From NCBI RefSeq assembly GCF_024734665.1, contig NZ_CP102931.1:1548001-1612000 (forward strand): a DNA stretch of 64,000 nt, given 5' to 3'. Positions within the stretch are counted from its first letter, which is position 1, and the number at the start of each line of letters is the position of its first letter. Positions 484-21,971 of the stretch are shown here, piece after piece. This DNA comes from Variovorax paradoxus (lineage in GTDB: Bacteria > Pseudomonadota > Gammaproteobacteria > Burkholderiales > Burkholderiaceae_C). Made by a program: the position numbers and the translations under genes. A model generated the notes under the pieces. That model saw only the letters and a list, made by a program, of their open reading frames with translations, did not search any database and had not been told where the DNA came from.

Positions 484-2034
484 TCAGACGGCAGACGCCG
501 CGGCAGCCCTCGTACCGCGACGGTCGAAGACCGGCGGCGTCTTGACGATCGAAGTCAGCGCGGGTTCGGCCATGCGCAACGAGGCCAGGTCGGGCCGGGG
601 GCGGCGCAGCTGCGCGTGGGCCGAGAAGGCTTCTTCCATCGCCCGCGCGGCGCCCAGCACCTGGTGGTCGGCGCGAAAGCCGCCCACCACCTGCAACCCG
701 AAGGGCATGCCCGCGTGGTCGAGCCCGCAGGGCAGCGAGATGGCCGGGTGCGTGGTCAGCGTGACCACGTAGGTCAGCGCCAGCCAGCGGTAGTAGTTGG
801 CCTGCTGCTCGCCGTTGATGTGGCCGGCATACAGCTGCGTCCACGGAAAGGGCGACACCGGCGTGGTTGGCGACAGCACCAGGTCGTAGTCGGCGAAGGT
901 CGTCTGAAAGCGCTTGATGAGCCGCGTCTGCTCGGCCTGCGCCCAGGCGCTGTCGAGCAGGCTCATGCGCGCGCCCATCTCGTAGTTCGCGCGCGGGTTG
1001 GGCCCCAGGCTGGCGGGGTCGCGTTCGTAGGCCGCCTGCATGCCCGCCACGAAGGCTTCGGCACGCAGCACGTCGAAGCAGCGGTGCGCCTCGCCCATGT
1101 CGAACTCGACCTTGTCGCAGCGGCGGAACAGGTGCCGCATGGCTTCGATCTTCTGCCGGAAGGTGGCGCGGATGCCGTCGTCCACGGCGCAGGTGCCGAA
1201 GTCTTCGGTCCACGCCACGCGCAGGCCGGCCAGGTCAACCTGCGCGGGCGCCAGAAAAGACATCGGGTCGAGCGGATAGCTCAGCGGGTCGCCCGCGTGC
1301 ATGCCGGCGGACGCCGCCATCTGCAGGCAGGCGTCTTCCACGGTCCGGCCCATGGGGCCGACGACCGAAATGGGCGTCCAGCCCAATGGCTTGCGCACGC
1401 TGGGCACGATGCCCGGCGACGGCCGGAAGCCCACCACGCCGCACTTGGCCGCCGGAATGCGCAGCGACCCGCCGGTGTCGGAGCCGGTGCATACGGGCAG
1501 CATGTCGCAGGCCAGCGCGGCCGCCGAGCCGCCCGAGGAGCCGCCGGCATTCAGGTTCGGGTTGAAGGGGTTGCCCGTGGCGCCCCACACGTCGTTGCGC
1601 GAGTTGGCGCCCGCGCCCATCTCGGGCACGTTGGTCTTGCCCGCCACGATGGCGCCCGCGCGGCGCAGGCGGGCCACCAGCTCGATGTCTTCCGTGGGCA
1701 CGTGGTCGCGGTAGATCGGCGAGCCCCAGGTCGTGAGCAGGCCTTCGGTGGGCTCCAGGTCTTTCACGCCCAGCGGAAGGCCGTGCAGCAGCCCGAGCGT
1801 GTCGCCGCGCATCACGGCGCTTTCGGCCACCATGGCTTCGTTGCGCGCACGCTCGAAACAGGTTGCGGTCACCGCGTTGACGAAGGGGTTCACGCGCTCG
1901 ATGCGCGCGATGCATGCTTCAAGGAGCTCGACGGGCGAGATGGCCTTGCTGCCGATGAGGTGGCGCAGTTCGACGGCGGATTTTTCGACGAGCTCCGTGC
2001 TGGTGTCGCGGGATGTGTTGTTCGTTGGGTTCAT
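484..2034 (-). CDS. Amidase signature-family amidase
   Basis: 516 residues, the normal size for an amidase-signature enzyme, which hydrolyses an amide to acid plus ammonia or amine. The Ser-cisSer-Lys triad is visible: Lys91 in GVKD, cis-Ser166 in the NAGGSSGGSAAAL stretch and nucleophile Ser190 in SDTGGSLR. No signal peptide, so it should act in the cytoplasm. The start codon overlaps the stop of the upstream Bug-type binding protein gene (TGATG), so the two are translationally coupled; an imported amide or a product linked to the imported acid is the natural substrate guess. The exact substrate cannot be read from sequence; GatA is unlikely because no gatB or gatC lies nearby. Confidence 0.9.
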   Translation of the reverse strand: MNPTNNTSRDTSTELVEKSAVELRHLIGSKAISPVELLEACIARIERVNPFVNAVTATCFERARNEAMVAESAVMRGDTLGLLHGLPLGVKDLEPTEGLLTTWGSPIYRDHVPTEDIELVARLRRAGAIVAGKTNVPEMGAGANSRNDVWGATGNPFNPNLNAGGSSGGSAAALACDMLPVCTGSDTGGSLRIPAAKCGVVGFRPSPGIVPSVRKPLGWTPISVVGPMGRTVEDACLQMAASAGMHAGDPLSYPLDPMSFLAPAQVDLAGLRVAWTEDFGTCAVDDGIRATFRQKIEAMRHLFRRCDKVEFDMGEAHRCFDVLRAEAFVAGMQAAYERDPASLGPNPRANYEMGARMSLLDSAWAQAEQTRLIKRFQTTFADYDLVLSPTTPVSPFPWTQLYAGHINGEQQANYYRWLALTYVVTLTTHPAISLPCGLDHAGMPFGLQVVGGFRADHQVLGAARAMEEAFSAHAQLRRPRPDLASLRMAEPALTSIVKTPPVFDRRGTRAAAASAV

Positions 2035-3023
2035 CAGTCGGCTGTGATGTTTGCGCGAGCCGCAACGGCGCGCATCAAGGGCAGTTCGCGGTTGATCAGC
2101 TCACTCGACGCGGCACTGCTGCTGAACGCCGGCTCCAGCCCCTGGCCCAGCAGCTTGGTACGCGTTTCGGGGTCGGCGATGGTCGTGGCCAGCGCCTTCT
2201 CGAGCTTGGCCTTCACGTCGGCGGGCACGCCCTTCGGGACGGCGATCATCAGCCACGAGTCCATGTCGACGCTGGCATAACCGCTCTCGGCGAAGGTGGG
2301 CACGTCGGGCAGCAGGGCGGAGCGCTTCGCAGTCGTCAGCGCAATGGCCTTGATCTTTCCGCTCTTGAGCTGCGGGATTGCCGCGCTCACCGTGTCGATG
2401 CTGAACGGAATCTGGCCGCCCATCAGGTCGGTCATTGCGGGCGCGCTGCCCTTGTAGGGTATGTGCGTCATCTTCAGGCCGGTGGCATGCAGCATGGTTT
2501 CGCCGGCGAACTGCGCGGTGGTGCCGGTGCCGAAGGAGCCGTACGAATACTTGCCCGGCGAGGCCTTCACGTAATCGACGAACTGCTTCACCGTCTGCAC
2601 CGGCACCTCGCTGTTCGCCAGCAGGATCAGCGCGACGCGACCCGCGATGCCGATGGGGTCGAAGCTCTTCACCGGGTCGTAGGGCAGGGCGGCGCGAATG
2701 GCGGGGTTGACGGTGAACGTCGAGCCCGAGCTGATCAGCAGCGTGTAGCCGTCGGGCGCGGCCTTCGACACATAGCTTGCGCCGACCACCGTGCCGGCGC
2801 CCGCGCGGTTCTCGATGATGACGGGCTGGCCGAGCTCCTTGGCCAGACGCTGAGCGATCACGCGCCCGTTGACGTCCGTCGCTCCGCCAGGCGGGAACGG
2901 AATGACCAGCGTGATCGGGCGCGAGGGAAAGTCCGCCGCGGCGGCAGGCGTGGTCAGCGGCAGGGCGCCAAGTGCGAGGCCACATACCAGTGCCATGCGC
3001 GCCATGAGCGGGAGACGGTTCAT
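2034..3023 (-). CDS. Bug/TctC-family periplasmic substrate-binding protein
   Basis: 329 residues with a cleavable signal peptide (about residues 1-29, ending TPAAAA before DFPSRPITLV). The mature start PSRPITLVIPFPPGGATD is the hallmark of Bug receptors, the very large Burkholderiales family of periplasmic binding proteins that capture carboxylates, amides and other small acids, sometimes for tripartite tricarboxylate transporters. No TctA or TctB membrane genes are present nearby, which is common for this family. It is first in a two-gene unit with the amidase (one-base overlap) and diverges from a LysR gene, so its ligand is probably the amidase substrate or inducer. Ligand identity is unknown. 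Confidence 0.93.
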   Translation of the reverse strand: MNRLPLMARMALVCGLALGALPLTTPAAAADFPSRPITLVIPFPPGGATDVNGRVIAQRLAKELGQPVIIENRAGAGTVVGASYVSKAAPDGYTLLISSGSTFTVNPAIRAALPYDPVKSFDPIGIAGRVALILLANSEVPVQTVKQFVDYVKASPGKYSYGSFGTGTTAQFAGETMLHATGLKMTHIPYKGSAPAMTDLMGGQIPFSIDTVSAAIPQLKSGKIKAIALTTAKRSALLPDVPTFAESGYASVDMDSWLMIAVPKGVPADVKAKLEKALATTIADPETRTKLLGQGLEPAFSSSAASSELINRELPLMRAVAARANITAD

Positions 3024-3127
3024 CGGGAACTCCTGGATTTCGACGGGGGATTTCGATGGGGATCGGGAGAGGGCAGGTTCATCCTAGGAGCGTCATGCCA
3101 GTGTCACAAGCGCAATGTTTAGAATTC

Positions 3128-3155
3128 TGCGTTGCCGAATCGGCAATCCACGCAA
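3128..3155. promoter_or_regulatory. Putative LysR operator (T-N11-A palindrome)
   Basis: The divergent gap between the Bug gene and the LysR gene holds the perfect inverted repeat TTGCCG-AAT-CGGCAA at 3132-3146; its second T (3133) and matching A (3145) are separated by exactly 11 bases, the classical LysR T-N11-A box. Flanking TGCG (3128-3131) and CGCA (3152-3155) extend partial symmetry. Seen directly; assignment to this regulator is inferred from position. Confidence 0.6.
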
Positions 3156-3186
3156 TCCGTTTCAGGCCACGCCACAGGAGAAATTC

Positions 3187-4101
3187 ATGCAGCTTCGTGC
3201 CTTGCAGGAGACCGCGGTGCGCTACTTTCTCGAGGTCGTGAAAACCGGCTCCGTGAAGGAGGCAGCGCTCAAGCTCAATGTGGCGCCCTCGGCGGTGAGC
3301 CGGCAGGTGGCGCGGCTGGAGCGCGAACTCGACACTCTGCTGTTCGAGCGCCATGCGCGCGGCATGGTGCCCAATGCCGCGGGCGAACTGCTGGCGGCGC
3401 ATGCCAAGCGCGCACAACAGGACATCGAGCGGGTCACGAACGACATCGCCGGCCTGCGCGGCCTGCGCAGCGGCCATGTGCGCGTGGCGAGCACCGAGGG
3501 CTTTGCCTTCGACTTCATTCCCAGGCTGATCGCGGACTTCCGCCGCAAGCACGAGGGCATCCGCTTTCACCTGGAGGTGTGCTCGCCCGCCGATATTTCG
3601 AGCCAGGTGCGCGACGGCGAGGCCGACGTGGGCATCACTTTGAGCGCCGCGCCCGAGCCCGGCATCGAGATCCAGCTGCGGTACCCCAGCCCCATCCTGG
3701 CCGTGATGGCCAGGGACCACCCGCTGGCGCAGCAGCGGCAGCTGTCGCTGCGCCAGGTGGTCGCGTATCCGCTGGGGCTGCCGCAGGAAGACAGCTCCAT
3801 ACGCCGCCTGCTCGACGCAAGCTGCGCCCGGCAGGGGCTGCGCTATTCACAGGCCATGTCCAGCAACCACGCGAATGCGCTGCTGAGCTTTGCAGCCGCT
3901 GGTGGCGGCAGCATCGCCTTCTACGGCCCGCTGTCGATACGCACGCTGCTGCAGAGCAAGGCACTGGTCGCCCTCCCCGTGAAAGATCGCGAAATGAACG
4001 AGCGGCACCTGGAGATAGAGACCATGGCCGGCCGCTCGCTGCCCGATGCCGCGAAAGCCTTCGTGCGGCATCTGGTGGAGGCCGTCAAGGCCAGCGGATA
4101 G
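3187..4101 (+). CDS. LysR-family transcriptional regulator
   Basis: 304 residues. The ATG at 3187 is chosen because GGAGA lies a few bases upstream and the protein then begins MQLRALQETAVRYFLEVVKT, the usual LysR start; an in-frame extension to 3115 has no such signal. The winged helix-turn-helix (about 12-70) contains SVKEAALKLNVAPSAVSRQV, followed by a LysR substrate-binding domain. It is divergent from the Bug/amidase pair and the T-N11-A box sits between them, so it most likely controls that pair in response to the Bug ligand or amidase product. The effector is unknown. Confidence 0.9.
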   Translation: MQLRALQETAVRYFLEVVKTGSVKEAALKLNVAPSAVSRQVARLERELDTLLFERHARGMVPNAAGELLAAHAKRAQQDIERVTNDIAGLRGLRSGHVRVASTEGFAFDFIPRLIADFRRKHEGIRFHLEVCSPADISSQVRDGEADVGITLSAAPEPGIEIQLRYPSPILAVMARDHPLAQQRQLSLRQVVAYPLGLPQEDSSIRRLLDASCARQGLRYSQAMSSNHANALLSFAAAGGGSIAFYGPLSIRTLLQSKALVALPVKDREMNERHLEIETMAGRSLPDAAKAFVRHLVEAVKASG

Positions 4102-4146: not shown

Positions 4147-6603
4147 CTATCCGCGCCGTTCGAGCGCAGCCTTGATGAGCGAGGGGTAAGGCGGCCGCGA
4201 TTGCGGCGTGGCTGCAAAGCGCTGGCCGGCAATGTCGATTTCGTACTCGCCGTGCATTGCCTCTTCCCTCGTCAGTGGTTCGGCGCTGCGTACGTAGCCC
4301 ATCACCACCATCCGCTCCAGCACCGCGCTGTAAGCCGTGGAGGTCAGCTCGCCGACGGCCTTGCCGTTGCGCAGGATCGGTTCGCCGCCCCATGCGAAGG
4401 CCTGCGGGTCGTTCAGCGTGAACATCATCAGCCGCTTGGAGAGCCGCTCGGGTGTGATCTTCGCGAGCGCGGCCTGTCCGATGAAGGCGACCGGCTTGTC
4501 CAGCTGGACCGCGAATTCCAGGCCTGCCTCGAACGGGTTTTCGTCCGGCCCAAGTTCGAGGCCGAAGGCTCGGCGCCCGGCCTCGATGCGCAAGGCGTCG
4601 ATCGTGTAGTAGCCGCCGTCGCGAAGGCCCAGGTCGGTGCCCGCGTCGAACAGCGTGTCGTACACATGCACCGCCATCTCAGTCGGGATGTACAGCTCCC
4701 ACCCTGGACCGCCGACGTACGAGACCTTGGCCGCGAGTGCGCGCGCGTAGCCGACGTCGATCTCGATCACTGCCGATTGCGGGAATGCCTCCTTGCCCAG
4801 GTCCTGCGGCGTGACCCGGGACAGCAACTGCTGTGCCTTCGGGCCGGTCACCGTGAGGGTGCAGTAGCTGGAGGTCACATCCGTCACCGTCACATGCTCG
4901 TGCGCATGCAGGTGGCGCCTGATGTGGCCGATGTCGCGGCAGGGCTGCGCGGAGCCGGTGATGATCAGGAAGCAGTCTGCCGCCAGCCGCATCACCGTGA
5001 GGTCGCTCTCGAAGCCGCCGCGTTCGTTGAGCAGCGCGGTGTAGACCATGCTTGCAGGCCGGATCGCCACATCGTTGGCGCACAGGCGCTGCAGCAGCAG
5101 TTCGGCGTCGCGGCCCTGCACCATCAGCTTGCCGAACGAAGTCTGGTCGAAGACGACCACATCTCGCCGCACCGCCATCTGCTCTTCGATGCAGGCATCC
5201 AGCCAGTCGGGGCGGCCGAAGCCGTAGCGGGCATGCGCCTCTTGCCCCGGCAATGCGAACCAGCTCGCGCGCTCCCATCCCAGCTTGCTGCCGAAGGCCG
5301 CGCCCTTGGCCTTGAGCTTGTCGTACAGCGGCGAGCGGCGCAGCGGCCGTCCGGACTCCAGCTCGTGGCGCGGCCAGCGCATTGCGTAGTGCAGCCCGAG
5401 CGCTTCCACCGTGCGGTCCTTCAGCCAGCGCTTGTTGCTGTTGAAGGGTGCGAAGCGGCGGATGTCCACGTCGAGCAGATCGGCCGGCGCAGCGCCACCG
5501 ACGATCCATTCGGCGATCAGCTTGCCCGCGCCGCCCGCGTTGGCGATGCCGGCCGAGTTGAAGCCGGCGGCCACGAAATAGCCGCGCACCTCGGGCGCTT
5601 CGCCGAGGATGAAGTTGCCGTCCGGTGTGAAGCTCTCGGGGCCGTTCAGGAACAGCTTGATCTCGGTGGTCTCCAGTGCCGGCGTACGGTGCACCGCTTC
5701 GTCGAGCAGGATCTGGAACTGGTCCATGTCGTCCGGCAGCAGCTGGAACTCGAACTTCGGCGGGATGCCGTCCATGCCCCAGGGCTTGGCCACCGGCTCG
5801 AAGCCGCCCATCACCAGGCCGCCGACTTCTTCCTTGTAGTAGATGTAGCCGTCGGGGTCGCGCAGCACCGGCAGGTCCCGGTGGACGCCTTCGATCTCCT
5901 TGGTGACCAGGTAGAAGTGCTCGGCCGAGTGCAGCGGGATGTTGACGCCCGACATCTTGCCCAGCTCGCGCGCCCATTGGCCGGCGCAGTTGAGAAAGCT
6001 CTCGCAGCGCACCGTGCCCTGGTTGGTCTCGACGCCGACGATGCGGCCGTTCTCGATGATCGTGCCGGTGATCTGCACGCCCTCGAAAATTTTCGCGCCG
6101 CGGTTGCGCGCGCCCTTGGCCAGCGACTGCGTGAGGTCGGTCGGGTTCGCCTTGCCGTCGCCGGGCAGCCAGACTGCGCCCACGAGATCGTCGATGCGCA
6201 TCAGCGGCCACAACTCCAGCGCTTCGGCCGGCGTGATGAACTCGGCCTCGATGCCGAAGCTGCGGGCCGTGGCGATGGTCCGTCGCAGAAGCGTCATGCG
6301 CTCGGGCGTGCGCGCAACCGTGATGCTGCCGCACTGCTTCCAGCCGGTGGCCAGGCCCGTCTCGGCTTCGAGCGAGGCATACAGGTCGATGCCGTAGCGG
6401 CTCATCTTCGTCATGCTGCGGTTCGCGCGCAGCTGGCCGACCAGCCCGGCGGCATGCCAGGTCGTGCCGCAGGTGAGCTGGCCTTGTTCGAGCACGATCA
6501 CGTCGGTGCAGCCGAGCTGGGTGAGGTGGTAGGCCGCGCTGCAGCCGGCAATGCCGCCGCCCGCGATGACGACCTGCGCATGGGAGGGAAGTGGCGTCGC
6601 CAT
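4147..6603 (-). CDS. Dimethylglycine/sarcosine dehydrogenase-like FAD protein with GcvT domain
   Basis: 818 residues. An N-terminal FAD-binding oxidoreductase (dinucleotide motif GGGIAG at about 15-20) is followed by the FAO_M linker and a C-terminal aminomethyltransferase (GcvT and GcvT_C) half from about residue 430. TTWHAAGL places His50 where mitochondrial dimethylglycine dehydrogenase carries its covalent flavin. Such enzymes oxidise an N-methyl group and pass the carbon to tetrahydrofolate as 5,10-methylene-THF. No targeting signal. It is last in an apparent six-gene run after AEP transport genes, phnW and purU (33 bases after purU), which suggests an N-methylated aminophosphonate or glycine derivative as substrate. 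That substrate is inferred; ordinary sarcosine or dimethylglycine remain possible. Confidence 0.85.
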   Translation of the reverse strand: MATPLPSHAQVVIAGGGIAGCSAAYHLTQLGCTDVIVLEQGQLTCGTTWHAAGLVGQLRANRSMTKMSRYGIDLYASLEAETGLATGWKQCGSITVARTPERMTLLRRTIATARSFGIEAEFITPAEALELWPLMRIDDLVGAVWLPGDGKANPTDLTQSLAKGARNRGAKIFEGVQITGTIIENGRIVGVETNQGTVRCESFLNCAGQWARELGKMSGVNIPLHSAEHFYLVTKEIEGVHRDLPVLRDPDGYIYYKEEVGGLVMGGFEPVAKPWGMDGIPPKFEFQLLPDDMDQFQILLDEAVHRTPALETTEIKLFLNGPESFTPDGNFILGEAPEVRGYFVAAGFNSAGIANAGGAGKLIAEWIVGGAAPADLLDVDIRRFAPFNSNKRWLKDRTVEALGLHYAMRWPRHELESGRPLRRSPLYDKLKAKGAAFGSKLGWERASWFALPGQEAHARYGFGRPDWLDACIEEQMAVRRDVVVFDQTSFGKLMVQGRDAELLLQRLCANDVAIRPASMVYTALLNERGGFESDLTVMRLAADCFLIITGSAQPCRDIGHIRRHLHAHEHVTVTDVTSSYCTLTVTGPKAQQLLSRVTPQDLGKEAFPQSAVIEIDVGYARALAAKVSYVGGPGWELYIPTEMAVHVYDTLFDAGTDLGLRDGGYYTIDALRIEAGRRAFGLELGPDENPFEAGLEFAVQLDKPVAFIGQAALAKITPERLSKRLMMFTLNDPQAFAWGGEPILRNGKAVGELTSTAYSAVLERMVVMGYVRSAEPLTREEAMHGEYEIDIAGQRFAATPQSRPPYPSLIKAALERRG

Positions 6604-6636
6604 GATGTGTCGGAGGACTCGTTGGTTGATGGAGGG

Positions 6637-7503
6637 TTACTTGAAGACCACCGTCTTGTTGCGATGGACCAGGATCCGGTCTTCCAGGTGCAGGCGCACG
6701 CTGCGCGACAGCACGCTCTTTTCGATGTCCTTGCCGAGCCGCACCATTTCTTCGATCGAGTTGCCGTGGTCGATGTCGATCACGCCCTGGTCGATGATCG
6801 GGCCGGCGTCGAGCTCGGCCGTCACGTAGTGGCTGGTTGCGCCGGTCATCTTCACGCCGCGCTCGAAGGCCTGGTGGTAGGGCTTGCCGCCGACGAAGGC
6901 CGGCAGGAAGCTGTGGTGGATGTTGATGATGCGGTTGCGCAGGCGCTGGGTCATGTCGTCCGACAGCACCTGCATGTAGCGCGCGAGCACCATGAAGTCG
7001 CCGCTGAACTCGCGGAACAGCCGCTCCACTTCGGCATAGGCCTGCGTCTTGGTGTCGGGCGTCACCGGCACGTGGAAGAACGGGATGCCGTGCCACTCGA
7101 CGAAGGACCGCAGGTCGTTGTGATTGGAGATCACGCACGGAATTTCGCAGTGCAAGTCCTTGTTGCGCCAGCGGTGCAGCAGGTCGTTCAGGCAGTGGTC
7201 GAGCTTGCTCACCAGCACCAGCATGCGTTTCTTCACCGAGCTGTCGGAAACGCTCCACTCCATGTCGAACTGCTTCGCGACCGGCGCGAAGCGTTCGCGC
7301 AGTTCGTCCAGGTAGAAGGGCAGCGTGTCGGCCTGGATCTCCACCCGCATGTAGAAGCGGTTGTGCAGCGCGTCACCGTGCTGTGCGGCCTGGGTGATCA
7401 GGCCGCCGTGGCTCGCGATGAAGCTGCCCACACCCGCCACGATGCCCGTGCGGTCCGGGCAGGTGAGGGTGAGGATGTAGCGGCGTGGCGTTTCGTCGCT
7501 CAT
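6637..7503 (-). CDS. purU: Formyltetrahydrofolate deformylase
   Basis: 288 residues starting at the ATG at 7503, which follows GAAGG at good spacing; an upstream in-frame ATG at 7524 would overlap phnW. An N-terminal ACT domain (TLTCPDRTGIVAGVGSFIASHGG region) precedes the formyltransferase-fold catalytic domain, with INIHHSFLPAF, KPYHQAFERGVK and the LDAGPII segment carrying the catalytic His and Asp. PurU hydrolyses 10-formyl-THF to formate and THF, and is regularly paired with sarcosine or dimethylglycine demethylation, where it drains one-carbon units and regenerates THF. Here it lies 10 bases after phnW and 33 before the GcvT-containing flavoprotein. Confidence 0.93.
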   Translation of the reverse strand: MSDETPRRYILTLTCPDRTGIVAGVGSFIASHGGLITQAAQHGDALHNRFYMRVEIQADTLPFYLDELRERFAPVAKQFDMEWSVSDSSVKKRMLVLVSKLDHCLNDLLHRWRNKDLHCEIPCVISNHNDLRSFVEWHGIPFFHVPVTPDTKTQAYAEVERLFREFSGDFMVLARYMQVLSDDMTQRLRNRIINIHHSFLPAFVGGKPYHQAFERGVKMTGATSHYVTAELDAGPIIDQGVIDIDHGNSIEEMVRLGKDIEKSVLSRSVRLHLEDRILVHRNKTVVFK

Positions 7504-7513
7504 TGCAATGCCT

Positions 7514-8644
7514 TCAGGCGGCAACGGGTGCGGTGACGCGCCTGATGCCCATGGCCTTGAGCGTCTCGCCGATGGCGGCCACCGCGCCCGGAATGCCTGC
7601 CTCGCCGAAATGCCCCATGCAGCCGACGCGGAAGGTTTCCACCTGCGTGAGCTTGCCGGGGTAGAGGATGTAGCCGCGCTTCTTCACCTCCTGGTAGAAG
7701 GTCTTGAAGTCATAGTTGGCATCGTCGGGCGCGTGGAAGGTGACGATGATCGGCGCCTGGATGGCAGACTCCAGGAAGCTGCGGATGCCCAGCGAAGCCA
7801 GGCCTTCGATCAGCGCCTTGCAGTTGCGCGCATAGCGCCCGCCACGCGCCGCAAGGCCGCCTTCCTCGATGTACTGCGCAATGGCGGCGTCGAGCGCGGC
7901 GACCACGTGCGTGGGCGGCGTGAAGCGCCACTGCGTGGTCTTCTCCATGTACACCCACTGGTCGTACAGGTCCATGCTCAGCGAGTGGCAGTTGCCTTCG
8001 CACTTCTCGAGCGTGCTGCGCTTGATGACGACGAAGCCCATGCCCGGCACGCCTTCGAGGCACTTGCCCGAAGCGGCGACGACGGCATCGAAGGGCGTCT
8101 TGCGCGCATCGATCTCCAGCGCGCCGAAGGAGCTCATGGCGTCGATGATCAGCCCGCGGCCGTGCCTGGCGACAACCACCGCGATCTCGTGCAGGGGGTT
8201 GAGCACGCCGGCGCCGGTTTCGCAGTGCACCACCGCGACATGGGTGATGCTTGGGTCGGCTGCGAGCGCCCGGTCAACGTCGGCCGGCGAGACCTGTTTT
8301 TCTTCCGTGTAGTCGATGGTGGTCAGCTTGCGGCCGAGCACCTTGCAGATCTTGGCGAGCCGCTGGCAATACGCGCCATTGCTCGGCACCAGCACGTGGC
8401 CGGCGCGCGGCACGACGGTGCCGATGGCCGCTTCCACAGAGAAGGTTCCGCTGCCCTGCAGCGGAACGCACTCGTGCGTGTCGGCGCCGTGCACGATCTC
8501 CAGCACATGCTTGCGGATGCGCGCGGTGATCTGGTTGAAGTCGGCGTCCCATGACCCCCAGTCGCGCAGCATCGCCTGGCGCGTGCGGTCCGAAGTGGTC
8601 AGGGGGCCGGGCGTGAGAAGAATGGGGTAGGGGGCTTGACTCAT
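7514..8644 (-). CDS. phnW: 2-aminoethylphosphonate-pyruvate transaminase
   Basis: 376 residues from the ATG at 8644 with GGAG upstream; a much longer open frame continues upstream but lies inside the permease gene. The start [10 protein letters not shown] is characteristic of PhnW, and the PLP lysine is Lys194 in SGKCLEG, at the same number as in the Salmonella enzyme as I recall it. It moves the amino group of AEP to pyruvate, giving phosphonoacetaldehyde and alanine. The product feeds PhnY and PhnA encoded on the other strand at 13568-16270. No phosphonatase (phnX) gene is present, so the oxidative route is the one encoded here. Confidence 0.95.
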
Positions 8645-8700: not shown

Positions 8701-10425
8701 TCAACCGCGGCTCAGGTTGCGCCAGGCCTGCGTGCGCGACAGCAGCACGCGCGTGAGCAGCGAGTAGGCGATGCACACGATGGTCGAGGTGACGACGATC
8801 AGGCTGGCCAGCGCCGCGGCCGGGCCGATGTCGCCAGCGTCGTCCAGATGCATGATCGCGACCGAGGCCAGGATGGTCTCCGGCGTGTAGAGAAAGATGG
8901 CGCACGACAGGCTGGCCATCGACACCACGAAGAAGTAGCGCCCGATATCCAGGATGGCCGGCAGGCACACCGGCACCGTCACGCGCAGGAAGGTCTTGAA
9001 GAACGGCACCTTGAGCGAGGCCGACACGGCCTCGAACTCGTTGTCGATCTGCTTTAGCGCCGTCACGGCCGTGAGATGGCTCGACGTGTAGTAGTGCACC
9101 ACCATCGAGATGATCAGGATCGCCATCGTCTGGTAGAGAAAGTTCAGCGGGTTGGCCGGGTGGTTGAAGAACATCACGTAGCCCAGCCCGAGCACCAGGC
9201 CCGGCACCGCCATCGACAGCACCGCCATCAGGTGCATGCCCTTGCGCATCAGGCCGAGGTTGCGCGTCTTCTCGATCAGGTAGGCGCCCACGAAGACGAT
9301 CAGCGAGCCGGCCACGGCGGTGGCCATGGCAACGATCAGGCTGTTGCCGTAGGCCGCGGCCATGTCGCTTTCGACCAGCACGAAGTGATAGTGCTTGAGC
9401 GTGAGCGAAAGGTCGTAGGGCCACAGCGAGATCAGCGAGGTGTAGATCGCCATGCCGATGGTGGCCAGCAGCAGGCCGCACACCACCGCGCAGAACAGCA
9501 TCAGCAGCGGATCGGCGAGCTTGCGGCGCTTGGGGCTGTAGGGCACCGAGCGGGCCGTGAGCTGCGCCTTCAGCTTGCGCCGCACCACGTAGTCGATCAC
9601 GAAGGAAATGATCGATGGAAGCAGCAGCAGCATGCCCACCACCGCGCCGATGGAGAAGTTGTGCTGCCCCACCACCTGCTTGAACACGTCGACCGACAGC
9701 ACGTTGAAGTTGCCGCCGATCACCTTGGGCGCGCCGAAGTCGCTCACCACGTAGGTGAAGACCACGGTGGCCGCGCTGATGAGGCCGTACTTGCACGAGG
9801 GCAGCGTGATGGTCATGAACTGGCGAAACGGCCGCGTGCGCAGGGCAGTGGCCGCCTCGTACAGCCGGCCGTCGGCGAGCGACAGCGCGGTGACCAGGAT
9901 CATCAGCGCATGCGGAAAGGTGTTGTAGACCTCGGCCAGGATGATGCCGGGCGCGCCGTAGATCGACGTGCCGCCCAGCAGGAACTTGAGCGCGCCCTGG
10001 TTGCCGAACCACTGCACGAAGGAAATGGCCGACAGCAGCGAGGGCGCCAGCAGCGGAATCAGCGCGATGAGGCGGAACACCGCCTTCAGCGGCGCCGGCA
10101 TGCAGCTGCGCGTGAGCGCGTAGGCAAAGACGAAGGCGGTGGGCACCGAGATCATCACCACCGCCGCCGAAACCCAGACCGAGTTCCATGCCGCGCGCAG
10201 CAGGCTCGGCGTCTGGAAGTAGGTGATGAAGTGGGCAAGGCCGACGAAGCGGCCGTCCTTGTCCTGCACCGCGTGGGCCAGGATGGTCGCCAGCGGTGCG
10301 ATCAGGAACACGAAGAGCATCGCCATCACCACGAACAGGATGACCCGGGCAATGGTTTCGTCGCGGCTCCAGCGCATGGCCGGTCGCGCGGCGAACGCAG
10401 GACGGGGGTGTGCCAGCGTGTTCAT
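8701..10425 (-). CDS. AEP-type ABC transporter, fused double permease
   Basis: 574 residues with about twelve hydrophobic segments arranged as two BPD_transp_1 permease domains in one chain. Each half has an EAA-type ATPase docking loop: [15 protein letters not shown] in the first and [15 protein letters not shown] in the second. In Salmonella the equivalent permeases are two proteins (PhnU and PhnV); a fused form is typical of the predicted AEP transporters of Burkholderiales. Its start overlaps the ATPase stop by four bases (ATGA), and phnW follows 56 bases downstream. Inner-membrane AEP import is inferred from operon context. Confidence 0.88.
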
Positions 10426-11558
10426 GGCTTCGGGCTGCGTGCGGAGAAGGCGCGGATGCGATTGGCGCGCAGCGCGATGTCGATGGTGTTGCCTTCGCGG
10501 ATGTCGAGGTCGTGCAGCTGGTTGAGCGAGAAGTGCAGGCCGAGCGTTTGTCCGTGCAGCGCATCAGCCGTCACTTCGGCAATGCACAGGCCACCGAGGA
10601 ATTCGACCTTGGTGACCAGCGCCTGCAGGCGGTTGGCCGTGTCCTCTCCCAGGTGCTCGACCGCGCGGTCTTCGGGGCGCAGGTAGAGGTTGACGGCTTC
10701 GCCGGGCTCGAAGGCGCCGTCGCAGGCGTCGCACTGCAGCTCCATGTCGCCGACCTTGAAGCGGTGGTTGCCCAGCGCCACCGCGCGCAGCACGTTGACC
10801 TTGCCGACGAAATCGGCCACGAAGGGCGTGGCCGGCTGTTCGTAGACTTCCATCGGCGTGCCGACCTGCTCGATCACGCCGTGATTCATGACCACGATGC
10901 GGTCGGCCATCGACAGCGCCTCTTCCTGGTCGTGCGTGACCATGATGGTCGTGATGCCGACCTGCTTCTGCAGCCGGCGGATTTCGCCGCGCAGGCGAAT
11001 GCGCTCCAGCGCATCGAGCGCCGACAGCGGTTCGTCGAGCAGCAGCAGGCCGGGGCGCGTGGCGAGCGCGCGGGCCAGTGCAACGCGTTGCTGCTGGCCA
11101 CCCGAAAGCTGGCTCGGGTACTTGTTGCCCGAGGTCGGCAGGCCGACGAGCTTCAGCAGTTCTTCGACACGTGTCTTGATCTCACCTCGTTTGGCGCGGC
11201 TGTTGACCAGCCCATAGCCGATGTTCTCGGCAATCGACAGGTTGGGAAAGAGCGCATACGACTGGAAGACGATGCCGTAGTCGCGCCGGTCCGGCGGCAG
11301 CCACGAGACATCCTTGCCGTTCTGCAGGATCTGCCCGGCGGTCTGCGTTTCCAGCCCCGCGATGATGCGCAGCAGCGTGGTCTTGCCGCAGCCCGAGGGG
11401 CCCAGAAAACACAGCATCTCGCCCGGGTTCACGCGCAGGTGTACGTCGCGCAGCGCGCTGAAGGATTCGAAGTCCTTGCGAACGCCGACGATCTCGAGCG
11501 CTGCGGGAGCGCTCGCAGGCACCGGGCTGGCAATGAACTTGGTGTCGGTCATATCCAT
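10422..11558 (-). CDS. phnT: AEP-type ABC transporter, ATP-binding protein
   Basis: About 378 residues. Walker A GPSGCGKT near residue 53, signature LSGGQQQ, Walker B LLLLDEP and the switch His of [10 protein letters not shown] are all intact, and a C-terminal TOBE-like region follows, as in CUT1/Fbp-type importers. Three starts are possible: GTG 11567, ATG 11558 and ATG 11552; 11558 is chosen since a weak GAG lies eight bases upstream. The stop overlaps the permease start. It should power AEP uptake with the flanking permease and binding protein; the ligand is inferred from phnW and the rest of the operon. Confidence 0.88.
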
Positions 11559-11636
11559 TTTTCGCACTCGTCGTTGGCGGGCGTCACCACTGCGGCAGCG
11601 CCCGCGGATTGAAAGTCGTGGGGAATGCCGTCGGGC

Positions 11637-12677
11637 CTACTTGGGTTCAGCCTTGCCTTCGTAGCGCTTGCTCCATTCCGCCAGGATGCGCTCGCGGTTC
11701 TTCGCTGCCCAGTTGATGTCGTTCTTGGCGAGCAGCTTTTCGTAGTTGTCCGGAATGCCTTCGAGCTTCGAGGCCACGCCGGGGTAGGCCACCACCGCCC
11801 ACCATGTGGAGGTGATCTGGTTGGCCTCCTTGCTGGCCATCCAGTCGGCGAAGCGCTTGGCCTGTTCCGTCTTCTTGCTCGTCTTCATGATGCTGGTGGC
11901 CTCGATGTCCCAGCCCAGGCCTTCCTTCGGGAAGATCAGGTCGACGGGCGCGCCCGATTTCTTGACTTGGTGCGCGCGGAACTCGAACGAGATGCCGATG
12001 GGGAACTCACCCGCGCCGGCCTGCTTGCAGGGCTTGGAGCCCGAGTGCACGTACTGCGCGATGTTCTGGTGCAGCGCGTCCATGTACTTCCAGCCCTCTG
12101 CATCGCCCATGTTCTGCAGCCATGACGACACGTCGAGATAACCGGTGCCGCTGGAGGCCGGGTGCGGCATCGAGATGGTGCCCTTGTAGACGGGCTTGGC
12201 CAGGTCCTTCCAGCTCTCGGGCTTGGGCAGGCCGAGCTTCTGGGCCTCGACGCGGTTGAAGCAGATGGTGGCGGCCCAGACGTCCATGCCGACCCAGGCC
12301 GGCGGGCGGGCGCTGTCGGAGTAGGCGGGGTTCAGGTCCTTGAAGCCCTTGGGCTCGTAGGGCAGGAGCATGCCTTCCTGCTGCAGCAGCGCGAGGCTGC
12401 TGGCGGCCAGGCCGGCCACCACGTCGGCCTGCGGGTTGGCTTTTTCGGCCAGCAGCTTGGCGGTGACGATGCCGGTGGAGTCGCGCACCCACTTCACTTC
12501 GATGTCGGGGTTGGCTTTTTCGAAGGCGTCCTTGTAGAGCTTCATGGCGTCGGTCTCGAGCGCCGTGTAGACCAGGAGCGGAGTCTTCTGCGCCCAGGCG
12601 GCGCCGCCGGCCATGAGGCCTAGCGCCGCAACGCACAGGGCCGCGGTGAGACGGCGCGTGCTTTGTTTCATCGTCAT
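11637..12677 (-). CDS. phnS: AEP-type ABC transporter, periplasmic binding protein
   Basis: 346 residues. The ATG at 12677 is chosen because AGGAG lies six bases upstream. A signal peptide (about 1-30, ending AGGAAWAQ) leads into TPLLVYTALETDAMKLYKDA, the start of the extracellular solute-binding family 1 fold used by iron and AEP receptors. It is the first gene of the leftward phosphonate run and lies 78 bases upstream of the ATPase. It should capture AEP or a close relative in the periplasm. The strong TTGACA-17-TACATT promoter at 12764-12792 sits about 90 bases upstream. Confidence 0.88.
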   Translation of the reverse strand: MTMKQSTRRLTAALCVAALGLMAGGAAWAQKTPLLVYTALETDAMKLYKDAFEKANPDIEVKWVRDSTGIVTAKLLAEKANPQADVVAGLAASSLALLQQEGMLLPYEPKGFKDLNPAYSDSARPPAWVGMDVWAATICFNRVEAQKLGLPKPESWKDLAKPVYKGTISMPHPASSGTGYLDVSSWLQNMGDAEGWKYMDALHQNIAQYVHSGSKPCKQAGAGEFPIGISFEFRAHQVKKSGAPVDLIFPKEGLGWDIEATSIMKTSKKTEQAKRFADWMASKEANQITSTWWAVVAYPGVASKLEGIPDNYEKLLAKNDINWAAKNRERILAEWSKRYEGKAEPK

Positions 12678-12763: not shown

Positions 12764-12792
12764 AATGTAGATTGCTGATTGAAGACTGTCAA
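12764..12792 (-). promoter_or_regulatory. Strong sigma70-type promoter of the leftward phosphonate run
   Basis: On the minus strand TTGACA (12792-12787) is followed by 17 bases and TACATT (12769-12764), a near-consensus promoter reading into the phnS-like gene. The -35 box lies inside the left palindrome of the operator pair, so bound regulator would block RNA polymerase. Boxes and spacing are seen directly; transcription from it is inferred. Confidence 0.65.
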
Positions 12793-12817
12793 TAAAAAAT
12801 TGTTGACAGTTTTCAAT
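12778..12817. promoter_or_regulatory. Double operator between the divergent phosphonate runs
   Basis: ATTGAAGACTGTCAA (12778-12792) and TTGACAGTTTTCAAT (12803-12817) form an inverted repeat matching at 14 of 15 positions around a 10-base AT-rich spacer. Each arm is itself a short palindrome, TTGA-N6-TCAA. This is the size and symmetry expected for two dimers of the adjacent GntR/FCD regulator. A second TTGACA at 12803-12808 could serve the rightward run with a weak AAAATA at 12826-12831. Confidence 0.65.
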
Positions 12818-12837
12818 CCTCGGGGAAAATACGCCCC

Positions 12838-14794
<1,957 letters not shown>

Positions 14795-14821: not shown

Positions 14822-16270
14822 ATGAGCCAAGCCATCCTGAAGCCAGGCACCGTCCACCGCGAGGCCCTGCGCATTGCCGGCGAGCGGATTCACCGCGACC
14901 GCACGATCGACGTCACCTACCCCTATACCGGCGAAGTGATCGCCACCGTGCCCAAGGCCACGCTCGAAGATGTTCGGGTGGCCTACAAGATCGCACGCGA
15001 CTACAAGCCCACCCTCACGCGCTACGAGCGCTACAAGATCCTGATGCGCGCGGGCGAGATCATCGCCTCGCGCCTGGACGAGATCTCGCGCGTGATCACG
15101 ATGGAGTCGGGCCTGTGCCGCAAGGACTCGCTGTACGAGGTGGGCCGCGCCTCCGACGTGCTGCTGTTCGCGGCCAACCAGGCGCTGGTGGACGACGGCC
15201 AGGTGTTCTCCTGCGACCTCACGCACCACGGCAAGAGCCGCAAGGTCTATACGCTGCGCGAGCCGCTGCAGGGCGTGGTCACGGCCATTACGCCGTTCAA
15301 CCACCCGCTGAACCAGGTGATCCACAAGGTGGCGCCGTCCATTGCCACCAACAACCGCATGGTGCTCAAGCCCAGCGAGAAGACGCCGCTCACCGCCTTC
15401 ATCCTGGCCGACATCCTGTACGAGGCGGGCCTGCCGCCGCCGATGCTGTCGGTGATCACGGGAGACCCGAGGGAGATTGCCGACGAGATGCTCACCAGCG
15501 CCGACGTGGACCTGGTCACCTTCACGGGGGGCGTGGCCATCGGCAAGTACATCGCGGGCAAGGCGGTGTACAAGCGCCAGATCCTGGAGCTGGGGGGCAA
15601 TGATCCGATCATCGTGATGGAAGATGCGGACGTCGAGGAGGCGGCCACGCTGGCGGCCAGCGGCTCGTACAAGAACTCGGGCCAGCGCTGCACGGCGATC
15701 AAGCGCATGCTGGTGCACGAGGCGGTGGCGGACCGGTTCGTGGAGCTGCTGCTGGCCAAGACGAAGGCCCTGAAGTACGGCGACCCGATGGACCCGGCCA
15801 CGGACATGGGCACGGTGATCGACGAGGCGGCGGCGATCCAGTTCGAGGCGGTGGTCAACGAGGCGATCAAGGCGGGTGCGAAGCTGTTGTACGGCAATGT
15901 GCGTAGCGGCGCGCTGTATTCGCCGACGGTGCTCGACCATGTGGACCCCGGGATGACGGTGGCCAAGCACGAGACCTTCGGGCCGGTCTCGCCGGTGATC
16001 CGCTTCAAGACGATCGAAGACGCGATCCGCATCTCCAACGGCACGGCCTACGGGCTGTCTTCTGCGGTGTGCACGAACCGCATGGACTACATCACGCGCT
16101 TCATCCGCGAGCTGAACGTGGGCAGCGTCAATGTGCGCGAGGTGCCGGGCTACCGCCTGGAGCTCACGCCCTTCGGCGGCATCAAGGACTCGGGCCTGGG
16201 GTACAAGGAAGGCGTGCTCGAGGCCATGAAGAGCTTTACCAATACCAAGACTTATTCGTTGCCGTGGTAG
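14822..16270 (+). CDS. phnY: Phosphonoacetaldehyde dehydrogenase
   Basis: 482 residues of the NAD(P)-dependent aldehyde dehydrogenase superfamily. The catalytic Cys is at 290 in NSGQRCTAIKR and the general-base Glu at 256 in LELGGNDP; the Rossmann region includes TFTGGVAIGKYI. It oxidises phosphonoacetaldehyde, made by PhnW or by an FAD amine oxidase, to phosphonoacetate for PhnA. It lies directly between phnA and the PhnZ-type gene. The 3' end overlaps the most probable start of that next gene. Context makes this assignment much stronger than for an isolated aldehyde dehydrogenase. Confidence 0.93.
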   Translation: MSQAILKPGTVHREALRIAGERIHRDRTIDVTYPYTGEVIATVPKATLEDVRVAYKIARDYKPTLTRYERYKILMRAGEIIASRLDEISRVITMESGLCRKDSLYEVGRASDVLLFAANQALVDDGQVFSCDLTHHGKSRKVYTLREPLQGVVTAITPFNHPLNQVIHKVAPSIATNNRMVLKPSEKTPLTAFILADILYEAGLPPPMLSVITGDPREIADEMLTSADVDLVTFTGGVAIGKYIAGKAVYKRQILELGGNDPIIVMEDADVEEAATLAASGSYKNSGQRCTAIKRMLVHEAVADRFVELLLAKTKALKYGDPMDPATDMGTVIDEAAAIQFEAVVNEAIKAGAKLLYGNVRSGALYSPTVLDHVDPGMTVAKHETFGPVSPVIRFKTIEDAIRISNGTAYGLSSAVCTNRMDYITRFIRELNVGSVNVREVPGYRLELTPFGGIKDSGLGYKEGVLEAMKSFTNTKTYSLPW

Positions 16271-16854
16271 TCGCAGCATCGCTCGCTGTGCCGCTGGACG
16301 TGGAGGGCATCGTCGCCCTGTTCGAGGCCAGGGGCCACGCGCAGTACGACGGTGAACCCGTCACGCAGCTCCAGCACGCGCTGCAGTCCGCGCACCTGGC
16401 CGAGCAGGCCGGTGCATCCAGCGAACTCATCACTGCAAGCCTGCTGCACGACTTGGGGCACCTGCTGCACGACATGGACGGCACGCCCACGCAGCAGGGC
16501 CTGGACGACCTGCACCAGTACCGCAGCCGTGCCTTCCTGAAGCACCTGTTCGGCCCGGCCACGCTCGACCCGATCCGGCTGCACGTGGATGCCAAGCGCT
16601 TCCTGTGCGCGCGCGAACCGGGGTATCTCGAAGCGCTGTCGGCCGATTCGCAGCGCAGCCTGGTGCTGCAGGGCGGTGTGTTCGACGAAGCACAGGCAAG
16701 GCAGTTCGAAGCGCTGCCGCATGCGCTCGACGCGGTGCGCCTGCGCCGCTGGGACGACAGTGCCAAGTGCGCCGATGCGAAGACGCCCGACCTGATGCAC
16801 TACGCGCGGCACATGGTGCTCGCGTCGAGGCAGGCTGCCACGCAGCAGCCATAA
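16264..16854 (+). CDS. PhnZ-type HD-domain phosphonate oxygenase homologue
   Basis: 196 residues if translation begins at GTG 16264, overlapping the phnY stop by seven bases; GTG 16288 is an alternative. With the first start, Tyr28, Glu31, His38, His62-Asp63, His84, His107, Lys111 and Asp164 fall at nearly constant offset from the di-iron ligands and substrate residues of PhnZ as I recall them (Tyr24, Glu27, His34, His58-Asp59, His80, His104, Lys108, Asp161). PhnZ cleaves the C-P bond of (R)-2-amino-1-hydroxyethylphosphonate to glycine and phosphate. No gene for the hydroxylase partner PhnY* is in this window, so the natural substrate is uncertain. The family is regularly found in phosphonate operons. 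Confidence 0.8.
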   Translation: MVVAASLAVPLDVEGIVALFEARGHAQYDGEPVTQLQHALQSAHLAEQAGASSELITASLLHDLGHLLHDMDGTPTQQGLDDLHQYRSRAFLKHLFGPATLDPIRLHVDAKRFLCAREPGYLEALSADSQRSLVLQGGVFDEAQARQFEALPHALDAVRLRRWDDSAKCADAKTPDLMHYARHMVLASRQAATQQP

Positions 16855-16877: not shown

Positions 16878-18266
16878 ATGCGCCCCTTCTGGATCGAACA
16901 GGCCCTCTTCAACGACGGCGACCTCGCACCTGCACTGCAGGGCGCGCAGCGCGCCGACGTCTGCATCGTTGGTGGCGGCTTCACCGGGCTCTGGACCGCC
17001 ATCCAGGCGAAGCAGCGCAACCCGGCGCTCGACATTGCCATCGTCGAGAGCGATCTCTGCGGCTCCGGTGCGAGTGGGCGCAACGGCGGCTGCCTGCTGA
17101 CGTGGTCGACCAAGTTCTTCACGCTGCGCCGACTGTTCGGCGAAGCCGAGGCCATCCGCCTCGTCAGGGCCTCGGAAGATGCGGTGCAACACATCGCCGA
17201 CTTCTGCCGCGCGCACGGCATCGATGCCGAGCTGCGGCAGGACGGCACGCTCTACACCGCAACCTCGCAGGCCCAGGTCGGCGCGCTCGACCCCGTGATG
17301 AAAGGGCTGGAGGACTGCGGCCTTCATTCCTACCGCACGCTGCCGCCCGAAGAAGTCGCGCGCCGCTCGGGCTCCGCGCGCAACCTGGCGGGCGTGTATT
17401 CGCCCATCGCCGCGACCGTGCATCCGGGCAAGCTGGTGCGGGGGCTGAGGCGCGTGGCGCTGCGCATGGGCATCCGCATCTACGAGCGCAGCCCGATGAT
17501 CGACTTCACGCAAGGCCATCCGGTCACGGTGCGCACGCCGGCCGGCAGCATCGAGGCGCCGAAGCTGGTGCTGGCGATGAACGCGTGGATGGCCAGCGCC
17601 TTGCCTCAGTTCGAGCGCACGATCGCCATCGTGTCGAGCGACATGGTCATCACGGAAAAATGCCCCGAGCTGCTGCGCGCGACGGGGCTCGTCGATGGCG
17701 TCTCGGTGCTCGATTCGCGCACCTTCGTCTATTACTACCGCACCACTGTGGACGGTCGCCTGATGCTGGGCAAGGGCGGCAACACCTTCACCTGGGGCGG
17801 CCGCATCGCGCCGGTGTTCGACCAGCGCTCACCTTACGAGGCCGAGCTCACGCGCGCGCTGCATGGCTTCTTTCCTTCGCTGCGCGACGTGCCAGTGACT
17901 GCGAGCTGGAACGGGCCCTCGGACCGCTCCGTGACCGGCTTCCCGTTCTTCGGCAAGCTCAACGGCGCGCCGCACATCTACTACGGCTTCGGCTACTCGG
18001 GCAACGGCGTGGGGCCGACCTACATGGGCGGGCAGATCCTTTCATCGCTTTTGCTGGACGAGGACAACGCCTGGACGCGCAGCCCGCTCATCCAGGGGCC
18101 GCTGGGGCAGTTTCCGCCCGAGCCGATCCGCTACATCGGCTCCATCGTCGTGCGCGACGCGATCCGCCGCAAGGAAGCGGCCGAGGACCGCGACAGCCGG
18201 CCGTGGATGGTCGACCGGCTGCTGAGCAAGTTCGCCGACGCGGCAGGCAAGTCGGACAAGGGCTGA
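16878..18266 (+). CDS. Phosphonate-associated FAD-dependent oxidoreductase
   Basis: 462 residues of the DAO/glycine-oxidase-like flavoprotein family, with the FAD motif VGGGFTG at 31-37 and [10 protein letters not shown] shortly after. Last gene of the rightward phosphonate run, 23 bases after the PhnZ-type gene. Relatives in phosphonate loci have been annotated as aminophosphonate oxidoreductases, and enzymes of this group have been reported to oxidise AEP and N-methyl-AEP to phosphonoacetaldehyde; that would feed PhnY independently of PhnW. The stretch GYSGNGVGPTYMGGQI near the C-terminus is the usual second FAD contact. Substrate is inferred. It ends six bases before a second, convergent flavoprotein gene. 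Confidence 0.83.
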   Translation: MRPFWIEQALFNDGDLAPALQGAQRADVCIVGGGFTGLWTAIQAKQRNPALDIAIVESDLCGSGASGRNGGCLLTWSTKFFTLRRLFGEAEAIRLVRASEDAVQHIADFCRAHGIDAELRQDGTLYTATSQAQVGALDPVMKGLEDCGLHSYRTLPPEEVARRSGSARNLAGVYSPIAATVHPGKLVRGLRRVALRMGIRIYERSPMIDFTQGHPVTVRTPAGSIEAPKLVLAMNAWMASALPQFERTIAIVSSDMVITEKCPELLRATGLVDGVSVLDSRTFVYYYRTTVDGRLMLGKGGNTFTWGGRIAPVFDQRSPYEAELTRALHGFFPSLRDVPVTASWNGPSDRSVTGFPFFGKLNGAPHIYYGFGYSGNGVGPTYMGGQILSSLLLDEDNAWTRSPLIQGPLGQFPPEPIRYIGSIVVRDAIRRKEAAEDRDSRPWMVDRLLSKFADAAGKSDKG

Positions 18267-20988: not shown

Positions 20989-21002
20989 GGGTCAGCGCGC
21001 GC

Positions 21003-21770: not shown

Positions 21771-21873
21771 GGAAGCACTCCTCGGAGGAAAAGGACGTTG
21801 AAAAGTGGAAGTGAACGGAAAGGGAACGGAAAAGGGTGGTGCACCCTGCGATGCAACATGTATGCCAATAGTC

Positions 21874-21887
21874 GATTCTTTCGAATC
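21874..21887. promoter_or_regulatory. Inverted repeat in divergent IclR/transporter control region
   Basis: The 201-base gap between the binding protein and IclR genes is markedly AT-rich for this genome. It holds GATTC-TTTC-GAATC (21874-21887) and a second near-palindrome, ATCGATATTCGAT, about 50 bases nearer the IclR start. Both are candidates for IclR binding; which one is used is not decided by sequence alone. Confidence 0.4.
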
Positions 21888-21971
21888 TCTAATCAATAAA
21901 TAGAAACCACTAGTCGAGTTTTAAGAATCGATATTCGATATTTCGAAGGACATTAGATATACTCCACCGCC

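Follow-up and report, generated by a model that had tools for sequence, protein, structure and literature searches.

A dimethylglycine dehydrogenase-like flavoprotein in the 2-aminoethylphosphonate gene cluster of Variovorax paradoxus and its recurrence beside phosphonate genes in other genomes

The gene cluster and its flavoprotein

Phosphonates are compounds with a carbon-phosphorus bond. Variovorax paradoxus (assembly GCF_024734665.1) has a 7.29 Mb single-contig chromosome (NZ_CP102931.1), 64 kb of which (positions 1,548,001 to 1,612,000), here called the window, carry two divergent groups of genes for the uptake and breakdown of 2-aminoethylphosphonate (AEP). Here we describe this cluster and one of its products, a flavoprotein resembling dimethylglycine dehydrogenase (DMGDH), together with the distribution of related genes and a proposed role in the use of N-methylated AEP with tetrahydrofolate (THF) as carbon acceptor. 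The minus-strand operon has the order phnS2-phnT2-phnU2-phnW-purU-DMGDH-like with spacings of 69, -4, 56, 10 and 33 bases (window coordinates; bit scores with curated cut-offs in brackets):

4147..6603, minus strand: DMGDH-like flavoprotein, 818 aa (Pfam DAO, FAO_M, GCV_T and GCV_T_C)
6637..7503, minus strand: purU, formyltetrahydrofolate deformylase, 288 aa (TIGR00655, 354 bits, cut-off 286)
7514..8644, minus strand: phnW, 2-aminoethylphosphonate:pyruvate transaminase, 376 aa (NF010006, 596 bits, cut-off 296)
8701..10425, minus strand: phnU2, permease of the AEP ATP-binding cassette (ABC) transporter (TIGR03262, 809 bits, cut-off 593)
10422..11567, minus strand: phnT2, ATPase of the AEP ABC transporter (TIGR03265, 520 bits, cut-off 458)
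11637..12677, minus strand: phnS2, AEP-binding protein (TIGR03261, 536 bits, cut-off 393)

The start of phnS2 was placed at an internal ATG; the full open reading frame reaches 12749. An earlier sequence-only reading had proposed this six-gene operon of AEP importer, phnW, purU and flavoprotein, and the family scores over their cut-offs and gaps of at most 69 bases confirm it.

All four domains of the flavoprotein exceed their Pfam cut-offs in a single chain, which is the full DMGDH layout. Among its best 25 of 30 NCBIfam families no cut-off was reached; the PbfD1 model TIGR03364 gave 63 bits (cut-off 285), and TIGR03329, the family of PbfB-like proteins, was absent from these 25. In the PDB its sequence is nearest to human and rat DMGDH and to the bacterial dimethylglycine oxidase (DMGO) of Arthrobacter. 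An AlphaFold2 model built from a 23-row alignment (mean pLDDT 80.2, pTM 0.82) superimposes on DMGDH across its length with template modelling (TM) scores of 0.89-0.90 and 32-34% identity in the structure alignment, and on DMGO with TM scores of 0.83-0.86 and 28-29% identity. Residues 45-57 (which include H50), 258-274 and 387-418 were modelled with low confidence.

By alignment, H50 corresponds to the histidine that links flavin adenine dinucleotide (FAD), H229 and Y255 to the catalytic dyad (DMGO H225/Y259), and D534, Y629 and E636 to DMGO D552, Y651 and E658 of the folate site. The title of PDB entry 3gsi, a D552A mutant of DMGO, backs the role of D552; Y651 and E658 we take to be folate-site residues. 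None of the six residues varies across the 90 clade rows, and among 13 distant rows each is found in 12 or 13. Layout, key residues and fold are thus those of DMGDH and DMGO (human and rat DMGDH, 5l46, 4p9s and 4pab; Arthrobacter DMGO, 1pj5), with the difference that a Glu in human DMGDH takes the place of the Asp shared by DMGO and the window protein, and that the window gene is surrounded by genes for the breakdown of AEP and not of betaine. The sequence-only reading had assigned the flavoprotein to the THF-linked demethylating class; domains, catalytic and folate residues and fold agree with this, and membership is supported by the presence of every catalytic and folate residue checked. Covalent FAD and THF binding are predicted from the same residues. 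Human DMGDH is described as channelling its intermediate to THF via an internal cavity, with 5,10-methylene-THF as product (PMC5082570, available part of the article).

C91, K151, G252, S533 and E683 were considered as substrate markers and set aside; they distinguish most AEP-linked rows from the remaining rows and were not placeable in the active site, and K151, C91 and E683 are not kept in the phnW-phnA-phnY-DMGDH operons described below.

The plus-strand genes complete the cluster:

12764..12830, no strand assigned: divergent promoter-like sites in the phnS2-phnR intergenic region, as consensus matches only (2 in the region scanned against 0.9 expected)
12838..13566, plus strand: phnR, GntR regulator of phosphonate clusters (TIGR03338, 315 bits, cut-off 272)
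13568..14794, plus strand: phnA, phosphonoacetate hydrolase (TIGR02335, 615 bits, cut-off 408)
14822..16270, plus strand: phnY, phosphonoacetaldehyde dehydrogenase (TIGR03250, 875 bits, cut-off 636)
16288..16854, plus strand: HD-domain oxygenase of phosphonate clusters, Phn-HD (TIGR03276, 232 bits, cut-off 215)
16878..18266, plus strand: PbfB-like DAO-type flavoprotein, 462 aa, putative aminophosphonate oxidoreductase (TIGR03329, 819 bits, cut-off 633)

Since phnW, phnY and phnA all exceed their curated cut-offs within one cluster, the hydrolytic PhnWYA pathway for AEP is present. The cluster is this complete pathway plus three accessory enzymes. The HD protein remains under the cut-offs for TmpB (NF049941, 156 of 300 bits) and PhnZ1 (NF052439, 151 of 300). 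Directly downstream of its gene, and in the same cluster as the DMGDH-like gene, lies the gene of the TIGR03329 protein, presumably the equivalent of PbfB; for TIGR03329 itself the literature search found no paper.

Elsewhere in the genome there is a second purU, 45% identical to that of the operon. The alpha chain of sarcosine oxidase, SoxA, has a GCV_T_C domain. The only protein of the genome with GCV_T_C besides the DMGDH-like protein is GcvT-like; hence the search showed neither a sarcosine oxidase alpha chain nor a further DMGDH, nor a route from betaine to glycine through one of them. The operon contains none of the soxBDAG subunits.

Linkage to AEP genes in other genomes

The order-level set comprised 399 Burkholderiales genomes, including that of the window, with a match threshold of E<=1e-60. 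The DMGDH-like protein was found in 21 genomes and PhnW in 60 (53 over the curated cut-off). The best match reached at least 51% identity in 11 genomes, 10 of which have PhnW, in eight cases within 12 kb on the same contig; none of the 10 genomes with a best match below 51% has PhnW. Fisher's exact test gives p = 3e-8 for the link with PhnW, uncorrected for relatedness and with the 51% line set after viewing the data.

For gene neighbourhoods the best 80 of 290 relatives from a scan of named genomes were used, many of them on short contigs; the closest are from Variovorax (95% protein identity). Counting phnW, phnA, phnY, phnX or pbfA as a core AEP gene, such a gene lies in the available stretch of 52 of the 80 loci, and of 34 of the 39 that extend at least 8.5 kb to either side (long-flank loci). 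PhnW (E<=1e-60) occurs in 46 of the 49 genomes of loci L028-L076, in 45 of them over the curated cut-off. The common order is phnW-U2-T2-S2, divergent from phnR-phnA-phnY, an optional Na/Pi symporter gene, an optional HD gene, a TIGR03340-like permease gene and the DMGDH-like gene. Because the association recurs in many other genomes, it is not due to chance, and it is larger in extent than first thought.

The space between phnY and the DMGDH-like gene repeatedly holds genes for a Na/Pi symporter and for a membrane protein like TIGR03340 (268 bits, cut-off 288), with examples as follows:

L055:6875-8533, L042:9146-9988 and equivalents: Na/Pi symporter, TIGR03340-like protein

The symporter could export phosphate while AEP serves as nitrogen or carbon source.

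Among 240 genomes of Alphaproteobacteria, 72 have a family member (E<=1e-150) and 48 have PhnW; contig-end fragments were counted (one DMGDH match, G574; one PhnW match, G678). Five of the six genomes with a member of at least 57% identity have PhnW; loci L040 and L077 come from two of these genomes, G411 and G625 respectively. The distance from member to PhnW is 1 kb in G491, 2.8 kb in G673 and G569 each, and 5.7 kb in G680. G673 and G569 both show the order phnW-phnA-phnY-DMGDH-like, with only 49% identity to the window protein; the last two genes nearly touch in G673 (phnY frame end at L192:11810, start of the DMGDH-like match at 11801) and are 54 bases apart in G569 (L193). Plasmid pRmeGR4d of Sinorhizobium meliloti GR4 and a Phyllobacterium plasmid carry a 61% homologue beside phnW, phnA, phnY and transporter genes; the Phyllobacterium record names it just 'FAD-dependent oxidoreductase'. 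The phnWAY pathway of S. meliloti was reportedly described in the Journal of Biological Chemistry in 2011. Searching the literature for S. meliloti locus tags returned no paper.

Both phylogenetic trees are quick searches with support from the Shimodaira-Hasegawa-like approximate likelihood ratio test (SH-aLRT) only. A single AEP clade was considered and given up: the first tree showed one clade of 90, which the addition of Alphaproteobacteria broke. In the wider tree the phnW-phnA-phnY-DMGDH operons form a separate AEP-linked lineage. What is claimed is recurrent linkage rather than one clean clade.

No core AEP gene was matched in any of the 14 distant-relative loci (L141-L154). In L141 and L144 the distant DMGDH-like gene lies beside a kinase-like gene, that of L141 being nearest to GntI/thiamine kinase (164 bits, cut-off 357). 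In L142, L151 and L153 it adjoins what looks from its sequence like an amidohydrolase gene, partly with genes of a peptide-type ABC transporter.

Of the trio phnW, purU and DMGDH-like gene that the sequence-only reading had expected to occur together, the flavoprotein and the AEP genes are conserved with each other elsewhere, the flavoprotein gene also directly in the vicinity of phnW, and purU stands beside it just in Variovorax. In the stretches available, purU adjoins the DMGDH-like gene only in the window and in L027-L030 (4 of the 80 loci, all Variovorax), and purU was therefore rejected as a defining part; a formyltransferase match at 29% in L047 was set aside from this count. In the wider family, purU lies beside a distant member for which no AEP linkage was seen (L145), and other neighbours are FolD (L146) and a MetF-like protein (L194; 277 bits, cut-off 294). 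PurU, FolD and MetF-like neighbours fit the use of THF by the wider family. A precedent are the glyA-soxBDAG-purU operons of heterotetrameric sarcosine oxidase, in which likewise a THF-using N-demethylase is followed by purU for the recycling of THF (PMC3691474, available part of the article); the window enzyme differs from soxBDAG sarcosine oxidase in being a one-chain enzyme of DMGDH type, and AEP genes replace glyA.

Proposed function and alternative explanations

Flavoproteins of PF01266 in AEP clusters fall into three subgroups, PbfB, PbfC and PbfD, never two together (Zangelmi et al. 2023, PMC10590968; here and below according to the available part of that article). Conversion of N-methyl-AEP to phosphonoacetaldehyde is proven for PbfC and PbfD and strongly indicated, at the level of extracts, for PbfB; PbfC and PbfD yield phosphonoacetaldehyde and methylamine and bind their flavin non-covalently. 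The same source reports that N-methylated AEP is not a substrate of PhnW, that N-methyl-AEP nears AEP in abundance in some sources and that the described enzymes lose the methyl carbon as methylamine. By the TmpA/TmpB oxygenase route, trimethyl-AEP is converted to trimethylglycine and phosphate with all methyl groups retained (PMC10590968).

Judged by its sequence and setting, the DMGDH-like flavoprotein is probably a THF-dependent N-demethylase that acts on N-methyl-AEP and/or N,N-dimethyl-AEP and supplies PhnW. It would be an enzyme of DMGDH type that has exchanged N-methylated glycine for N-methylated AEP as its substrate. A covalently bound FAD would oxidise the N-methyl group of N-methyl-AEP and/or N,N-dimethyl-AEP, and the methylene carbon would travel by way of the internal cavity to the GcvT-like half and its THF; the products would be 5,10-methylene-THF together with AEP or, from the dimethyl compound, N-methyl-AEP. 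AEP, a primary amine, could then be processed by PhnW, PhnY and PhnA to acetate and phosphate, and in Variovorax a dedicated PurU, acting after FolD, would turn the one-carbon unit into formate and free THF. The electron acceptor and the direction of flow in this scheme are likewise conjectural. PbfA, which depends on pyridoxal phosphate like PhnW, should by analogy also refuse an N-methylated amine; if both require a primary amine, finding a demethylase next to each is what the proposal predicts.

The likeness to PbfB, PbfC and PbfD lies in the DAO-type flavoprotein, in the position as accessory gene of phnWX and phnWYA clusters and in the presumed nutrient. Unlike PbfC and PbfD, which bypass PhnW, the window protein has a GcvT half and the FAD-linking histidine, and it is predicted to yield AEP and methylene-THF and to require PhnW. 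With TmpA/TmpB the cluster would share the handling of N-methylated AEP, its HD protein being a relative of TmpB and PhnZ.

Several observations weigh against this assignment. Three of the 49 genomes mentioned above (G414, G415 and G442) have no PhnW match. In four long-flank loci of close relatives, L040, L045, L063 and L077, the available stretch contains no phn gene; the genomes of all four (G625 for L077) nonetheless have PhnW. In G255 the PhnW genes sit on other contigs. G633, the sixth of the alphaproteobacterial genomes with a member of at least 57% identity, has no PhnW match, though phnA lies about 2.3 kb from its family member. The wider tree nests a clade of eight rows without seen AEP linkage among the AEP-linked clades, most relatives have no adjacent purU, and a PbfB-like oxidase is already present in the window cluster. 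The last point had been overlooked when THF-dependent demethylation of N-methyl-AEP was first proposed from the sequence; enzyme class and linkage speak for that proposal, and N,N-dimethyl-AEP may be the main substrate here because of the PbfB-like oxidase. The DMGDH-like enzyme would either take N,N-dimethyl-AEP, with PbfB finishing the work, or both enzymes would act on N-methyl-AEP.

An unlikely alternative is an ordinary dimethylglycine or sarcosine demethylase, with the HD oxygenase cleaving N-methylated 1-hydroxy-AEP to betaine, dimethylglycine or sarcosine, which would be demethylated to glycine. HD oxygenase genes occur in 38 of 106 loci overall, in 35 of the 80 best relatives and in the window, the nearest characterised relatives of the flavoprotein use dimethylglycine, and the cleavage would parallel the action of TmpB on the trimethyl compound. 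However, an HD gene is missing from the available stretch in 13 of the 34 AEP-linked long-flank loci, and the fetched stretches of the S. meliloti, Phyllobacterium and phnW-phnA-phnY-DMGDH loci showed none either. No 1-hydroxylase of TmpA or PhnY* type was noticed in the window cluster, where no TmpA-family search was made. Such a pathway would not need phnW, yet PhnW is present in nearly every genome.

It is decidedly unlikely that the substrate is some other imported N-methylated phosphonate or amine, for instance N-methyl-1-hydroxy-AEP feeding PbfA, or N,N-dimethyl-AEP only. In genome G448 a pbfA-like gene (67% identity) is directly followed by a DMGDH-like gene (53% to the window protein; L198:6732-10653), a pair that suggests demethylation of N-methyl-1-hydroxy-AEP. 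Several other clusters contain pbfA, and the PbfB-like oxidase of the window would leave N,N-dimethyl-AEP to the DMGDH-like enzyme. On the other side, pbfA is found in just 5 of the 39 long-flank loci, PhnW is a near-constant partner in the genomes, and this is a variant of the favoured assignment, not a separate mechanism.

A PbfB/C/D-like reaction, in which the ethyl C-N bond of N-methyl-AEP would be oxidised to phosphonoacetaldehyde and methylamine and the GcvT half would be a relic, is very improbable. In its favour are the shared DAO superfamily and kind of gene cluster (PMC10590968) and the rarity of a TIGR03329 gene alongside (only 4 of 59 genomes with a DMGDH-like gene), as if the two replaced each other. 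Yet the invariance of D534, Y629 and E636 would not be expected of a relic, PhnW would be dispensable, and FAD is non-covalent in PbfC and PbfD according to the same article. The gene order on plasmid pAB510a of Azospirillum sp. B510 is phnS2-T2-U2, phnW, phnX, a DAO-type gene and pbfA, which starts about 40 bases past the end of the DAO-type frame. The DAO-type gene, presumably PbfC, matches residues 8-401 of the window protein only, at 29% identity; it is a DAO half without the GcvT half, so that PbfC, if it is this gene, is another kind of protein than that of the window.

DMGDH-like and PbfB-like genes usually substitute for each other. G350, from the genus of the window, has a PbfB-like gene and PhnW without a DMGDH-like gene. 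Both genes are nevertheless kept in three of the four Variovorax genomes searched (G000, G399 and G401; not G400) and in Polaromonas sp. OV174 (G404, L033), which counts against the PbfB/C/D-like reaction. The latter strain has two AEP clusters on separate contigs, each with its own PhnW: one has the DMGDH-like gene, the other a PbfB-like gene about 10 kb from PhnW.

That the operon position has no functional meaning, the gene being a mobile or drifting neighbour, is hardly credible, for although some relatives are located away from phn genes, the linkage recurs in two classes and at least two sequence lineages, with short gaps in places.

THF-dependent demethylation of N-methylated AEP is therefore probably the most economical explanation. 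On balance, and a little more cautiously, we expect a widespread phosphonate-specific family of DMGDH type that moves the methyl groups of N-methyl-AEP and N,N-dimethyl-AEP to THF and regains AEP for PhnW, the carbon being assimilated or disposed of. While the DMGDH-type family is not new, its presence in AEP clusters appears to be undescribed. In the literature searched, subscription papers aside, no description was found of a GcvT-fused enzyme in AEP clusters. Among the matches listed, only PMC10590968 joins dimethylglycine dehydrogenase with phnW, as a comparison enzyme in the part available, and a search of its main text returned nothing on GcvT, folate or PurU, nor were chain lengths found in the article; among its 260 cluster sequences some may be of the GcvT-fused type (the supplement lay outside the literature search).

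The findings suggest a route, so far unreported, by which methylated phosphonates are used and their methyl carbon is retained. If the assignment holds, it would be a fourth solution for N-methylated AEP beside PbfB, PbfC and PbfD, the sole one to give AEP without loss of the methyl carbon, and the first for which the dimethyl compound is a main substrate; it would include the model phnWAY locus of S. meliloti and give a function to the generically named protein beside the phnWAY locus of Phyllobacterium. A folate-coupled route would tie phosphonate use to one-carbon metabolism and change the worth of N-methylated phosphonates to the cell, which would draw phosphorus, nitrogen and one-carbon units from them.

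Genes flanking the cluster

A LysR regulator (3115-4101, plus strand) lies beyond the DMGDH-like gene; it scores 94 bits, under the cut-off of 341, with the phosphonate LysR family TIGR03339. Further downstream of the operon, a Bug-type binding protein (2034-3023, minus strand) and an amidase (484-2034, minus strand) were noted from a look at the sequence. At the other end, a DAO protein within 18273-21896 (minus strand), nearest to L-pipecolate oxidase (281 bits, cut-off 600), adjoins the phn cluster, and its gene is followed by what appears to be an amino-acid-type ABC transporter.

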